In this document: piece after piece, positions 25,197 through 30,302 of the stretch | Layout of the letters: every line of letters begins with the position of its first letter | Numbering within the stretch: the stretch's first letter is position 1 | From: Phycisphaerae bacterium | Lineage (GTDB): Bacteria; Planctomycetota; Phycisphaerae; SM23-33 | Assembly: GCA_016929245.1 (NCBI GenBank) | Contig: JAFGJE010000025.1 | Span: forward strand, 1-50,193 | Length of the DNA stretch: 50,193 nt | Direction of reading: 5' to 3' | The notes under the pieces: model-generated | Seen by the model: the letters and a program-made list of their open reading frames with translations, nothing else | Databases searched by the model: none | What the model was told of the DNA's origin: nothing | Translations under genes and position numbers: made by a program

Positions 25197-25429
25197 CCGG
25201 TCCCGAAGGGACCGAAAGCGTTTAGCCGGGGCGTGAGCGCAGCGAACCCCCGGTAGCGGTTTTAATTATCACAAGTCCCGAAGGGACGGCGGCGAACCAG
25301 GAATACCATTCCCCCTGAAAATAAACAATAATCGCTGTCGTCCCGTTGGGACTCTTGATTTGGGATTTCTTTCCGGGGGTTCGCTTCGCTCACACCCCGG
25401 CTAAACGCTGACGGCCCCTTTGGGGCCTA
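25197..25429. repeat. Composite palindromic repeat, copy C
   Basis: Third copy of the element at 283 and 6628: outer hairpin gtcccgaagggac, gcgtttagccggggcgtgag, inner arm agtcccgaagggacggcggcg, then reverse-complement modules to ggcccctttggggcc. The right end reaches the stop codon of the sigma factor gene (TAG, 25427-25429). The left side faces the start of the PpiC-type gene. 25109-25196 shows nothing else. Confidence 0.85.
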
Positions 25430-27091
25430 CTCTTCCGGGTTTCCGATCGCTCGGAGTTTGTCGAGGGCCTGGATTTCGATCTGGCGGACGCGCTCCTTGC
25501 TGATCCCGAGCTGCCTGCCGAGTTGATCGAAGGTTTTGGGCGTGGCGTTTTCGTCCAGGCCGTAATGATTCACGAGAATCGTCCGCTCCCGCGCGGAGAG
25601 ATGATCGAGCATCACGGTGATGCTCTCGCGCAGTTCGGCGAGGTTTTCCTCCTCGGGATCGTAGCTCCGCAGGCCCGCGGCGATATCGAGCACTTCCTCG
25701 TGCCCGGTGCTGAAGCGGTCGAGCTGGTAGCGTTCCTTCGGGACGGACCGGGCGAAATTCCGCATGATCGCCCAGGAGGCGTACGTGCTGAAGCGGAATC
25801 CCCGGGCGTAATCGAATTTCTCGACCGCCCGCATGAGCGAGACGTTCCCGTCGCTGATCAGCTCGAAGAGATTCAAAGGCCCGGACACGTGTTTCTTGGC
25901 GATGGACACGACCAGGCGCAGGTTCGCCCGCACGATGCGGTTTTTCGCGACGTTGGCCTGCAGGAGCAACGCCTCGACGTCCTTGATCTGCTGCACGGAG
26001 ATGCGGTTCACGTCGATTTTCTTGCGAAGCTGATCGGCTTTGTACTTGAAATAATTGTACCGGCGGAATTCCTTGAATTCGCTTTCGGCGCTTAAGAGAG
26101 GCACCTCGTAGAGACTCCTGAGATACGGGGGGAGGTCCCTGGGGGCCTTGGCTTTTTCAATGGGTTCGTAGCGTCCCTCCACGTCCGGTTCGGGATCGAC
26201 CAGGATGAGTTCGTCGGCGTCCGGGCGCTCGAATTCCTCGTTGAAGACGTAGGAAATCGGGCGTTCCAGCAGTTGCACCGCCCGCATTTCGTTGACGATG
26301 CGATAGATGCTCCCGCGGGTGCGGTGGTAGCGTTCCGAGAGGCTGGGCACCGGTTCGCCGCGGAGGAAACTCCGGTAGATGCGGCGTTTTTCCTGGTTGT
26401 CCAGCGTGTTGAGCAGGTGGGGAAACAGCGCCCGGTCGGGATGGTCGTTGTCGTGCTTTCGGATGGTGTAGCGGATGGTCTCGACGGCCCGTCCGGTCTG
26501 ACGGGCCAGGCGACGGGCGACGTCGCTGAGGCTGCATTGCGTGGTTTCGATCATGTGCCGGGACTTTTGAAGAATATCCTGCTTTTCCGCTTCGGTCAGT
26601 TGCGAAAAGCGGATCGACCGCTGGATTTCCTTCTGATGCCCCTCGAGGAACCAGCGAACGGAACTGTCGAGGAATCCCACGCGTCGCCGGCCGTCCGGAA
26701 AGATCACCCGCCGCGCGGGCAAACCCCGGTTGCGCCAGCGCTGGACGGTCTTGGTCGACACGTTGAACCGCTGCGACAGCGCGGGAGTGTCGTAGACCAC
26801 CTCGTCGTGATCGCTCGTGTGCAGATCAAAACTCTCCGAAACGTCCAGGATCAGTTGGAGAAGATCGTGCTGGAGAGAGCGTCCTTCCAGCAGCATCCCC
26901 GGACCGGCCGATCCGCCGGGACGATACCCCGTTAAGCGGTGGACCACAAACTCGTAAGGATATTCCTGGGAAGGTTCGATGAGACGAAGGAGTTCTTCGG
27001 CGTGATCGAGATATCCCCGTCGCAGCCTGGCGAGGCCCGACCCTAACTCGACAGCCAATTCCGCGATCGGCTTGTTCCTGTATTTTCTCAT
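25427..27091 (-). CDS. Sigma-70 family factor with N-terminal helix-turn-helix block
   Basis: 554 residues from ATG 27091. The C-terminal half has sigma region 2 (about 385-455: NLRLVVSIAKKH, LISDGNVSLMRAVEKFDYARGF, FSTYASWAIMRNFA) and region 4 (about 497-548: LSARERTILVNHYGL and the -35 HTH GISKERVRQIE); region 3 is short. The N-terminal 380 residues replace regions 1.1/1.2 and contain three HTH-like segments: a MerR-like one at 101-125 (TPALSQRFNVSTKTVQRW), one at 186-210, and one at 247-270. Probably a group 2/3-like sigma factor that could bind extra DNA sites. It lies alone, with a 200-bp AT-rich upstream region. Confidence 0.85.
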   Translation of the reverse strand: MRKYRNKPIAELAVELGSGLARLRRGYLDHAEELLRLIEPSQEYPYEFVVHRLTGYRPGGSAGPGMLLEGRSLQHDLLQLILDVSESFDLHTSDHDEVVYDTPALSQRFNVSTKTVQRWRNRGLPARRVIFPDGRRRVGFLDSSVRWFLEGHQKEIQRSIRFSQLTEAEKQDILQKSRHMIETTQCSLSDVARRLARQTGRAVETIRYTIRKHDNDHPDRALFPHLLNTLDNQEKRRIYRSFLRGEPVPSLSERYHRTRGSIYRIVNEMRAVQLLERPISYVFNEEFERPDADELILVDPEPDVEGRYEPIEKAKAPRDLPPYLRSLYEVPLLSAESEFKEFRRYNYFKYKADQLRKKIDVNRISVQQIKDVEALLLQANVAKNRIVRANLRLVVSIAKKHVSGPLNLFELISDGNVSLMRAVEKFDYARGFRFSTYASWAIMRNFARSVPKERYQLDRFSTGHEEVLDIAAGLRSYDPEEENLAELRESITVMLDHLSARERTILVNHYGLDENATPKTFDQLGRQLGISKERVRQIEIQALDKLRAIGNPEE

Positions 27092-27383
27092 ATCGCGTTT
27101 TTTCACCGGCGGGAACCCAAACCCACCGGATGTCCCCCAGAGATACCCAACCGCGACAGGACATGTACTAATACTCCATCCGAAAGGAGATTGCAAGGAT
27201 AATTTCGGGATTATTTTGAATAATCTCAAAAAACTGTCCTGTAGGCCAAAACCCTTATTTTTCGGGGTTTTTTGATTGTACAAATTTAACCATGTTCCTG
27301 TCCTCCCACGCATTCGTCAGAAAAAGATTATTTTATATCCTCTTGAAAATAATGTTCTTATATATTTTTCCAACGAAACAATC

Positions 27384-27413
27384 TTGACAATTCCGATCAT
27401 GGATGGTTAGAAT
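27384..27413 (+). promoter_or_regulatory. Probable promoter of the PilB-like gene
   Basis: TTGACA (27384-27389) and TAGAAT (27408-27413) with an 18-nt spacer. The predicted start point is near 27420, giving a leader of about 125 nt. The region 27092-27383 between it and the divergent sigma factor gene is AT-rich; I see no gene in it. Confidence 0.6.
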
Positions 27414-27418
27414 GCTTA

Positions 27419-27520
27419 TGGCGATTTAAGGACGCCACCCGGCCTGCGGAAAGGGCATAGCCCACCTTCAATAGGCAAAAAATTTTGAAACCTTCTTTTC
27501 TGCCCTCGCGAGCAGGCCCG
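27419..27520 (+). ncRNA. Candidate structured leader of the PilB-like gene
   Basis: Starts with hairpin TGGCG/CGCCA (27419-27437), then a long-range closing stem GGCCTGC/GCAGGCC (27441-27447 with 27512-27518). Inside are a tight hairpin GGGC-ata-GCCC (27453-27463), which competes with AGGGCA/TGCCCT pairing (27452-27457 with 27501-27506), and the palindrome CTCGCGAG (27505-27512). The alternative pairings suggest a regulated leader. It lacks the conserved GNRA loop and receptor of cyclic di-GMP-I riboswitches. Function is inference. Confidence 0.35.
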
Positions 27521-27546
27521 GGGCGCGAACGAAAGGAAGGTGTCTC

Positions 27547-28977
27547 ATGACACTCTCGTTACCGACCCGTCCCAGTCTGTCGTATCTCCGCAAGCAGGCG
27601 AAGTCTCTCCTGAAACGTCACCAGGCGAAAAACGCGGACGTCTGTTCCATCCTTCGAAATCTGCATCGCTTTACCGACGCGGCGGAGGAGGACATCCTCA
27701 GCGCGAGCGTGTCGCTGGTGGAGGTGCAGTTCGCACTGGCGATGGAATACGGCTTCAAGGACTGGAGCGACCTGAAAACCCACGTCGAGGCGCGGGAAAC
27801 TCCCCCCGTCAAAACGGCTGTCGATCCATCCGCCTGGCCCGAGATGCGGCGGGCGATTCTCACCGAAGCCGTCTCGCTGGGCGCGTCCGACACGCACCTG
27901 GAATGGAACCGGGATCGACTCGTTGTACGGCAGCGCGTGGACGGCGCGTTGCGGCCTTCGGACGTCTCCATCGACAAGGAGCAGTCACGATCGGTTCTCG
28001 ACGGATTCAAGATGCTCGGAGCACTGGACACGACGGTCCATGACGAACCGCAGGTGGGACTCTGCCTGTGCGACGTGAACGGAAAACGCGTCAGCATGCG
28101 CATCTCCGTCGTTCCGTACACCTCCGGAGAATCCATCGTGATTCGTCACCTGCCCGACCAATTGACACTCGACATGAACGCCTTCGGTTGGCCCTCAGAA
28201 ACGCTGGAGCGTTTTCGCCGGTGGATTCGTAGGCCGACGGGACTGATCGTCGTGACCGGACCGACCGGTTCGGGAATGACGACGACCATCTACGGCGCGT
28301 TGCGCGAACTGGCCGCCGACGGCGGCGCGAAAATCATCACGGCGGAGAATCCCGTGGAATATCAGATCGACGGGATTCTTCAGCAGCAGATCGGGCCGTT
28401 GGAAGGCGTTTCCTACGCCCAGGCCGTCACCGCCCAGATGCGTCAGGATCCGGACATCATGTTCGTCGGCGAATGCAAAGACTCCGAAACCCTCGAAGTC
28501 ATCCTCCATGCCGCGATCACCGGGCATCTCGTGTTCACGACCATGCACGCGGACGACGCGCCGGCGTGCCTGCGACGCCTGCTGGATTTGAAAAACGACC
28601 CCTACCGGATCGGCGGCGCCTTAATCGGCGTGCTGTCGCAGCGGCTGGTGCGAAAAATCTGCGAAGATTGTCGCGAATCCCACGAACCGCCGGCCTGGGT
28701 GCGTCAAAGCCTGCCGGAGTTGCCCACGGGCAAATTCTCCCGGGGCAAGGGATGTCCCGCGTGCAGGAACTCCGGATACCGAGGCAGGGTCGCCATCGCC
28801 GAGATGCTCGAAGTGGACGACGCGTACCGAGAACTCCTGGCGCGGAACGCAGCCGTCGAGGAATTCCGAAAGCGGTTCAAAACCTCCGGTACGCATTCGT
28901 TGCGAACGGCGGGACTCCTCGCGGCGGCGGAGGGGATCACGGCCATCGACGAAGTCCTGCGCGTCTGCCCGGGATAA
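27547..28977 (+). CDS. PilB/GspE-like ATPase with altered Walker A and N-terminal fusion
   Basis: 476 residues, ATG 27547 with GGAAGG. Residues 9-80 match a module seen at the start of ankyrin-like and other proteins (LRKQAKSLLKRH and LAMEYGFKDWSDLKTHVE). Residues about 95-475 are the secretion/pilus ATPase: N2-like domain (ASDTHLEW, RVDG), Walker A at 238-245 reading GPTGSGMT with Met244 where Lys is invariant, Asp box TAENPVEY (Asn for the usual Asp), Walker B region DPDIMFVGECKD (usually GEIRD), His box TTMHADDA, and a zinc tetracysteine C372, C375, C403, C406. The codon is atg, so this is not misreading. ATP hydrolysis is doubtful; a regulatory or structural role is inferred. No other secretion genes adjoin. 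Confidence 0.85.
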   Translation: MTLSLPTRPSLSYLRKQAKSLLKRHQAKNADVCSILRNLHRFTDAAEEDILSASVSLVEVQFALAMEYGFKDWSDLKTHVEARETPPVKTAVDPSAWPEMRRAILTEAVSLGASDTHLEWNRDRLVVRQRVDGALRPSDVSIDKEQSRSVLDGFKMLGALDTTVHDEPQVGLCLCDVNGKRVSMRISVVPYTSGESIVIRHLPDQLTLDMNAFGWPSETLERFRRWIRRPTGLIVVTGPTGSGMTTTIYGALRELAADGGAKIITAENPVEYQIDGILQQQIGPLEGVSYAQAVTAQMRQDPDIMFVGECKDSETLEVILHAAITGHLVFTTMHADDAPACLRRLLDLKNDPYRIGGALIGVLSQRLVRKICEDCRESHEPPAWVRQSLPELPTGKFSRGKGCPACRNSGYRGRVAIAEMLEVDDAYRELLARNAAVEEFRKRFKTSGTHSLRTAGLLAAAEGITAIDEVLRVCPG

Positions 28978-29009: not shown

Positions 29010-29074
29010 CAACAGCGCCGAGCGGCAAACCGACATGATTCCCGGCTTGCCGCTCGGCGCTGTTATCTTTTTCG
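29010..29074 (+). terminator. GCCGAGCGGC-family hairpin, copy 3, as terminator
   Basis: Arms CAACAGCGCCGAGCGGCAAACCG (in two blocks) and the complement, then ttatctttttcg. It lies 33 nt after the stop of the PilB-like gene, in the right place for an intrinsic terminator. The stretch to 29216 shows nothing else. Confidence 0.7.
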
Positions 29075-29216: not shown

Positions 29217-30302
29217 GTGAATGTAAACGCCGTCGTCGATCAGTATCAGAAGGTTCGTTCGGGCCGGGAATCGCGGACGAAACAATTCCTGGACGGTTCC
29301 CGTAAGTATCTGATCTTTCAAACGCCGGATGGAAACGTCTGGTCCGACGCCCGAACCCCGGAGGAATGTTTCGAGCGAAATATCGAGTACGTCGAAAAAT
29401 CTCTCGACATTCCCAGCGATCACCTGCCGCTGATGGAACCCTGGTTCGGAACGGGCGTGTACGCGAACATGTACGGCTGCGAGTATGTCTGGCGCGACGG
29501 AGAGGCGCCGGCGGTTCATTACCTGTACCATCAGCTGGATGAGGTGGTCGGCCTAGCGAAACCCCGCTGGCAGGACAGTCCCGTCGCGCGGCTCGTGCTG
29601 GAGACGATTCGCTATTTTAAATCGAAACTCGGCGACGCCCTGCCGATCGTCTGGACGGACACCCAATCGGCCAGCGACACCGGAACGCTGATCCTGGACG
29701 CCTGCGAAGTGTTCACCGGCTGCCTGCTCGAACCGGAGAAAATCGAGGCCTTCCTGCGGCAGATCAATTCGCTGATTATCGAATTCAGCAACGTCCAGGC
29801 CGAGGAAATCGGCGAGGCGCTGCTTTCCCCGGGACATATTTTTCTCAGCGGCACGGGATTCGCGGGAATGAGCATTTCGGACGACAACCTGGCCGTCAGC
29901 TCCCCGCGGGTGAACGAACGCTTCAACCTGCCGCTCGCCGAAGAAATCGGCAGGGCGATGGACGGCGTGGCGATACATTCCTGCGGAAACTACGCCCACA
30001 CCATGGGCAGGATCAAGGAACTGGTTCCCTCCTGCGTCGCGCTGGATTGCGCGCTGGACCACGTGGTCGATCCGAATCCGAATTCCCCCGAAGCGGTGCG
30101 GGACGCGCTGGTGGGTTCAAACATGGCGGTCCACGTGCGAATGACCGGCCGGACCGAAGCGATGCTTGAAATCGTCCGGCGGGTGATGCACCCGGATCTG
30201 CGACTGGTGGTGCATCCGTCCTACATCGACGACGAAACGGCGGAGAGAAACTACGCGGCCCTGGATTCCCTGCTGTCGGGGATGAAAGAAAATGTCGCGT
30301 AG
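29217..30302 (+). CDS. Uroporphyrinogen decarboxylase-like (URO-D/MtaA superfamily) protein
   Basis: 361 residues from GTG 29217, which has AGGAG 7 nt upstream and suits the next codons. The URO-D superfamily includes HemE and cobalamin- or corrinoid-dependent methyltransferases (MtaA, CmuA type). Visible are a barrel with LPLMEPWFGTGVYANMYG, WTDTQSASDTGTLILDACEVF and the HSCGNY motif near 262, whose Cys resembles the zinc/thiol site of methyltransferases rather than HemE, where it is not conserved. HemE-defining N-terminal Arg/Asp motifs are absent. It is more likely a methyltransferase-like enzyme than HemE; substrate unknown. No corrinoid protein is adjacent. Confidence 0.75.
   Translation: MNVNAVVDQYQKVRSGRESRTKQFLDGSRKYLIFQTPDGNVWSDARTPEECFERNIEYVEKSLDIPSDHLPLMEPWFGTGVYANMYGCEYVWRDGEAPAVHYLYHQLDEVVGLAKPRWQDSPVARLVLETIRYFKSKLGDALPIVWTDTQSASDTGTLILDACEVFTGCLLEPEKIEAFLRQINSLIIEFSNVQAEEIGEALLSPGHIFLSGTGFAGMSISDDNLAVSSPRVNERFNLPLAEEIGRAMDGVAIHSCGNYAHTMGRIKELVPSCVALDCALDHVVDPNPNSPEAVRDALVGSNMAVHVRMTGRTEAMLEIVRRVMHPDLRLVVHPSYIDDETAERNYAALDSLLSGMKENVA

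Follow-up and report, generated by a model that had tools for sequence, protein, structure and literature searches.

The gene at positions 27547 to 28977 (+ strand) of the 50,193-nucleotide stretch of Phycisphaerae DNA analyzed here (the window) encodes a module–T2SSE fusion of 476 residues, in which an N-terminal helical module is joined to a GspE/PilB-like ATPase domain, and its start codon directly follows a structured leader RNA. We read its product as a mimic of a pilus or secretion ATPase that is soluble, defective as a motor, and made under translational gating, and assign this reading a probability of roughly 0.5; that the leader–module family to which the gene belongs is real we regard as almost certain.

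As described in the initial annotation, the frame is open throughout its 476 codons, and GC by codon position (0.64/0.46/0.77) has a third-position bias like that of the adjoining genes. Residues 102 to 472 (27850 to 28962, + strand) match the Pfam profile T2SSE (PF00437) with an E value of 5.7e-90 and GspE/PilB structures (1p9r, E 1e-82). The protein lies far below the NCBIfam equivalog cut-offs for both GspE (349.5 versus 630 bits) and PilB (312.3 versus 676 bits). The N1 domain normal for PilB/GspE is absent, with the module standing in its place and the T2SSE match beginning at residue 102, and no stretch of the protein is hydrophobic enough for a membrane segment. The window genome, a draft assembly of 263 contigs, returned 17 matches to the query protein, nearly all of them T2SSE-type ATPases. 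Among the related genomes searched, we found no second genome carrying the fusion gene and no orthologue close enough for a dN/dS estimate, and a same-genus genome (G001) yielded no orthologue.

The catalytic motifs were compared in an alignment of about 80 homologues drawn from the window genome and related genomes. The reported loss of the Walker A Lys is borne out: Met244 (codon 28276 to 28278, + strand) occupies this position in GPTGSGMT, and the window protein is the only sequence to lack a Lys that the other 79 of 80 homologues carry. GECKD (residues 308–312; 28468 to 28482, + strand) likewise replaces GEIRD, keeping the catalytic Glu and exchanging Arg for Lys (R311K); the Arg is present in 81 of 82 homologues, the window protein being the exception. 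The Asn reported in the ASP box is also there (Asn268 in TAENPVEY), but as a mark of a dead motor it is ruled out, because Asn occurs in five of 80 homologues, normal-looking paralogues among them. What had been taken for a HIS-box remnant is in fact an intact box, with both H327 and H334 in place, and the zinc-type tetracysteine is complete (C372, C375, C403, and C406; 28660 to 28764, + strand). The alignment also shows no change in the ASP-box Glu, the catalytic Glu, or either arginine finger, and the residues kept here, including the HIS box and tetracysteine, are conserved in the family or clade (PMC5424180).

The region upstream of the gene holds a promoter-like site, TTGACA-18-TAGAAT (27384 to 27413, + strand; 11 of 12 matches), whose −10 hexamer ends 2 nt ahead of the leader model; several other leaders are preceded by similar TTGACA/TAnnAT sites. 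The leader itself, of about 130 nt, extends from 27415 to 27546 (+ strand) up to the start codon, and had gone unseen in the first reading of the sequence. The covariance model R1 matches 27415 to 27549 with 129 bits (E 1e-31), a score to be read knowing that the window sequence is itself part of the model. The fold comprises four helices and two pseudoknots, all on the + strand. Hairpin P1 (TGGCG/CGCCA; 27419 to 27437) presents a loop AAGG (27428–27431) that pairs with CCTT (27465–27468) to form pseudoknot 1, and is followed by hairpin P2 (GGGC/GCCC; 27453 to 27463). P3 (27490 to 27541) is an 11-bp helix that holds the Shine–Dalgarno sequence and pairs ACCTTCTTTTC (27490–27500) with GAAAGGAAGGT (27531–27541). 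It encloses the inner helix P4 (GCCC, 27502–27505, with GGGC, 27521–27524), and pseudoknot 2 joins GGCCTGC (27441 to 27447) to GCAGGCC (27512–27518) in the P4 loop.

These helices and pseudoknots were first assigned by hand from the roughly 130 nt common to the upstream regions of module genes, and covariation supports them. In an alignment of 13 sequences, two-sided changes occur at 13 of 36 pairs, a count reached in none of 500 shuffles; in the alignment of 60 sequences obtained by the R1 search, all 35 tested pairs show them (0 of 500 shuffles), 94.4% of cells are paired where shuffles give 82.7%, and pairing falls to 53 to 56% when partners are offset by one column. The pairing of the nested helices depends partly on R1, which built this alignment; pseudoknot 2 is 99.7% paired and covaries in all six counted pairs, though R1 contained no such helix. 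G–U pairs are tolerated on one strand. The window leader folded alone, pseudoknots left out, is not markedly more stable than its shuffles (z −1.4), and the case for the leader thus rests on covariation rather than on energy. Scans of the window, of the companion locus L057 discussed below, and of nine further loci against Rfam 15 returned only chance matches. We also considered an exchange among two GAAGG and two CCUUC stretches as a general switch; this was ruled out, since the ankyrin-type leaders form pseudoknot 1 from CAGG/CCTG, which does not resemble a Shine–Dalgarno sequence. The leader probably keeps translation gated.

Leader and module travel together. An RNA-only search of 392 genomes of the phylum found 31 leaders, spread over 20 genomes, and every one leads directly into a module, including one whose start looks out of frame by 1 nt (L099) and one cut by a contig end once the first module helix has begun (L085). 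Conversely, a module-only protein search of GTDB gave 26 loci, with a leader at each that has enough upstream sequence. Among new GTDB loci independent of the model, 18 of 18 testable cases carry the leader, as do six of six plasmid or chromid records (Burkholderia, Methylosinus, Variovorax, Nonomuraea, and Gemmatirosa, the Nonomuraea match being weak at 19.9 bits) and the module gene of G057, so that 25 of 25 independent testable module genes have it overall. They span about ten phyla by record title, several of the records being metagenome assemblies: Planctomycetota, Hydrogenedentota, Lentisphaerae/Victivallales, Armatimonadota, Sumerlaeota, Coatesbacteria, Zixibacteria, Pseudomonadota, Gemmatimonadota, and Actinomycetota. 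A single leader (L139, 2430–2566) turned up with no module behind it; it precedes a gene that opens instead with a lipoprotein-like signal, and whose body is, by eye, of a type placed behind modules elsewhere; module and leader are thus not strictly inseparable.

The module (residues 1–88; 27547 to 27810, + strand), with its LRKQAK...YGFxxW signature, is modeled by AlphaFold2 as five helices with a pLDDT of 82. The earlier proposal of a head of about 80 residues shared with ankyrin proteins holds, and extends further: the module, of about 85 residues, heads ankyrin proteins and many others. It was found 14 times among 60 relatives, positioned N-terminally or nearly so, with unrelated bodies behind it, and two genomes (G006 and G021) carry adjoining copies of the leader–module head. 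Charges of the examined modules stay close to zero (−2 to +3). Neither a sequence match in the PDB to the module profile nor a significant PDB fold match to the AlphaFold2 model was found (best E 1.2), and the search used returned no relatives in viral contigs. The N-terminal part of Glyoxalase_8 (PF20066) weakly resembles the module in eight of 27 members (best E 0.008), but the module scores 15.6 bits against a gathering threshold of 23.7, and nothing in the remainder of that profile is matched.

The commonest bodies behind the module are ankyrin repeats; others include an uncharacterized domain resembling BtrH_N faintly (E 0.14), TIGR03067, APH, DUF1835, and repeats. A body of about 350 residues recurs in L117, L119, L121, L129, L131, L141, and L142, with BtrH_N faintly similar in one of them, and is possibly a new enzyme family. 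An antibiotic-response theme suggested by the APH and GNAT-like bodies was set aside, as most bodies do not fit it. In a minority of cases the body is a cytosolic component of a motility machine: GspE in the window, two GspF domains in L057, GspF plus GspE in L114 of genome G070, a PilN-like INLLPW peptide (by eye) followed by PilM in L125 (4001–5398; E 7e-114), and the cytoplasmic loop of MotA that lies between membrane segments in L135 (4001–4639; E 8e-10). The fusion proteins of the window, L057, L114, and L125, the four checked, contain nothing hydrophobic enough to span a membrane. The L125 record, a metagenome-assembled genome, is titled Pseudomonadales, a label that may be wrong.

The closest relative of the window ATPase domain is that of G070, from another family of the same phylum (339 bits versus at most 312 for any other), where leader, module, GspF, and GspE are combined in one protein (L114, 5835–7574, − strand). 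The two ATPases are sisters in the tree with a support of 0.99, on branches of 1.1 (window) and 0.42 (G070) substitutions per site. The fusion is therefore conserved beyond the window genome, but Met244 is not: G070 retains the Walker A Lys, which makes Met244 specific to the window lineage or genome. The initial annotation had held that Lys in homologues of identical architecture would point to a lone mutation, and such evidence has been found in part, in this G070 protein. G070 has lesions of its own, however, with the second HIS-box His replaced by Asn and the Walker B Gly by Ser, each unique among the roughly 80 homologues; by spacing, the lost His corresponds to PilB H420, which coordinates the γ-phosphate (PMC5424180). 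The second leader–module gene of the window genome (L057, 276–1562; G000:C2) encodes two GspF domains and a region collinear with the N-terminal domain of the G070 GspE (E 3e-11), and probably represents the remaining part of a module–GspF–GspE ancestor that split.

Taken together, these features mark the fusion gene as a transcription unit of its own, in a family that combines a folded leader RNA, a fixed module, and an exchangeable body. The leader would hold translation off until a signal, be it a ligand, a protein, or an RNA, opens P3, and the protein then made would be soluble and probably unable to run an ATPase cycle. That the protein is an evolved pseudo-ATPase is about an even call. 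The suggestion of a noncatalytic fused motor outlives the comparison with G070, since lesions at invariant sites in both fused ATPases support a noncatalytic role, and different lesions in two fused ATPases of one lineage fit a relaxed demand for catalysis. The fused protein may then act on the motor of a type IV pilus or type II secretion system, whether as adaptor or as decoy, a role we put forward only tentatively; it might do so by joining hexamers or by taking up the GspF/PilC-type platform, for instance. Both roles have precedent in Vibrio, where over-expressing PilT and PilU with mutated Walker A motifs disrupts native motors and PilU is still supported by ATPase-dead PilT (PMC6821130). 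Counting against a motor theme, the ankyrin, BtrH_N-like, TIGR03067, and APH bodies that make up most of the family have no link to motility, and the theme could therefore mirror domain abundance in planctomycete genomes.

The leading challenge to a motor-defective protein is that K244M arose by mutation only recently, is polymorphic, or reflects an assembly or sequencing error, in which case the fused ATPase would be competent and the leader–module family still real. A single-nucleotide change from AAG to ATG is enough, the G070 homologue has Lys, and the gene is found in no second genome and comes from a draft of 263 contigs; this account also fits the retention here of every other catalytic residue that the family holds invariant, along with the tetracysteine (the ASP-box and catalytic Glu, the arginine fingers, and the HIS-box His pair being the residues in question). 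Weighing against it are the second unique change in GECKD, the long window branch relative to that of G070, and the invariant-site losses of G070 itself, and on balance we consider it rather unlikely. That same long branch could instead record decay of the gene under relaxed selection since the ancestral module–GspF–GspE protein split in the window lineage, as could the degraded GspE N-terminal part that is all the companion L057 retains of this domain and the missing orthologue in the same-genus genome; an intact frame, a third-position GC bias like that of the neighbors, an intact promoter-like site, and a well-paired leader nonetheless make decay improbable.

Two further alternatives concern the leader. 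It might be a DNA-level site of recombination or capture rather than an RNA switch, with leader and module having spread as the head of a body-capturing cassette, and the unrelated bodies found under one head in about ten phyla, together with the neighboring copies in G006 and G021, speak for such an element. A position between promoter-like site and start codon, a Shine–Dalgarno sequence inside a conserved helix, and G–U tolerance on one strand fit RNA, however, and leave the cassette account very doubtful. Within the gated-mimic reading itself, the module might bind its own leader and autoregulate, like a ribosomal protein on its leader, instead of a small molecule serving as the signal. We hold this to be a substantial possibility, if short of an even one. 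The module is perhaps a common handle, for localization or for such feedback; the nearly perfect one-to-one coupling of leader and module favors feedback, and the module-free L139 leader and the near-neutral modules disfavor it, as does a predicted module fold that matches no RNA-binding structure.

Compared with known systems, the window protein shares with PilB/GspE ATPases (PF00437; 1p9r, 5tsg) the fold, the ASP-box and catalytic Glu, the arginine fingers, the HIS box, and the tetracysteine, but departs from them in lacking the Walker A Lys, in carrying the module in place of N1, and in being encoded by a stand-alone gene with its own leader. The G070 fusion has the same leader, module, and ATPase lineage and differs by its GspF domain, its Lys, and its loss of the second HIS-box His and Walker B Gly. 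Like the leaders that gate translation in riboswitches and ribosomal-protein operons, the window leader occupies a 5′ untranslated position, adopts a covarying pseudoknotted fold, and sequesters the Shine–Dalgarno sequence; it differs in having no Rfam 15 match and in being tied to one N-terminal domain rather than to one pathway. Both leader RNAs that hide the Shine–Dalgarno sequence and proteins that combine one constant head with differing bodies are familiar, but we know of no system that joins the two. A literature search, incomplete in coverage, found no description of the leader–module pair, and the family is apparently uncatalogued. The leader may have been glimpsed before as the Rhodopirellula-1 motif, a possible cis-regulatory element of Planctomycetes and Proteobacteria for which no Rfam accession is listed (Weinberg 2010; PMC2864571); its taxonomic label is similar to that of our leader, a comparison made by description only.

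What is unusual here is a structured RNA, strongly supported yet outside Rfam 15, that occurs in about ten phyla and is linked to a protein domain instead of a pathway, making a regulon whose common feature is a protein head. It opens to test both the signal sensed by the leader and the purpose of the "ankyrin-type" N-terminal module. As a speculative extension that we would not favor at present, this widespread new leader class could supply the regulation in a portable "RNA switch plus protein head" that bacteria join to unrelated bodies; in one branch these bodies would be soluble, catalytically crippled pieces of pilus and flagellar motors (GspE, GspF, PilM, and the MotA loop) serving as signal-controlled decoys; if the motor-part branch does consist of decoys, it would represent a new translation-level control of pili or flagella.

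Finally, the fusion gene does not belong to the pilT operon, since it has its own promoter-like site and leader and is separated from pilT by two unrelated genes. A URO-D/MtaA-like methyltransferase-type gene lies in this interval (29217 to 30302, + strand). A terminator-like 20-bp inverted repeat is found 3′ of the fusion gene (29014 to 29061), listed on the − strand, opposite to that gene. On the other side, a sigma-70-like factor (25427 to 27313, − strand) is encoded divergently from the fusion gene with 233 nt between them, and has an extra N-terminal region that by eye resembles parts of a helix-turn-helix.
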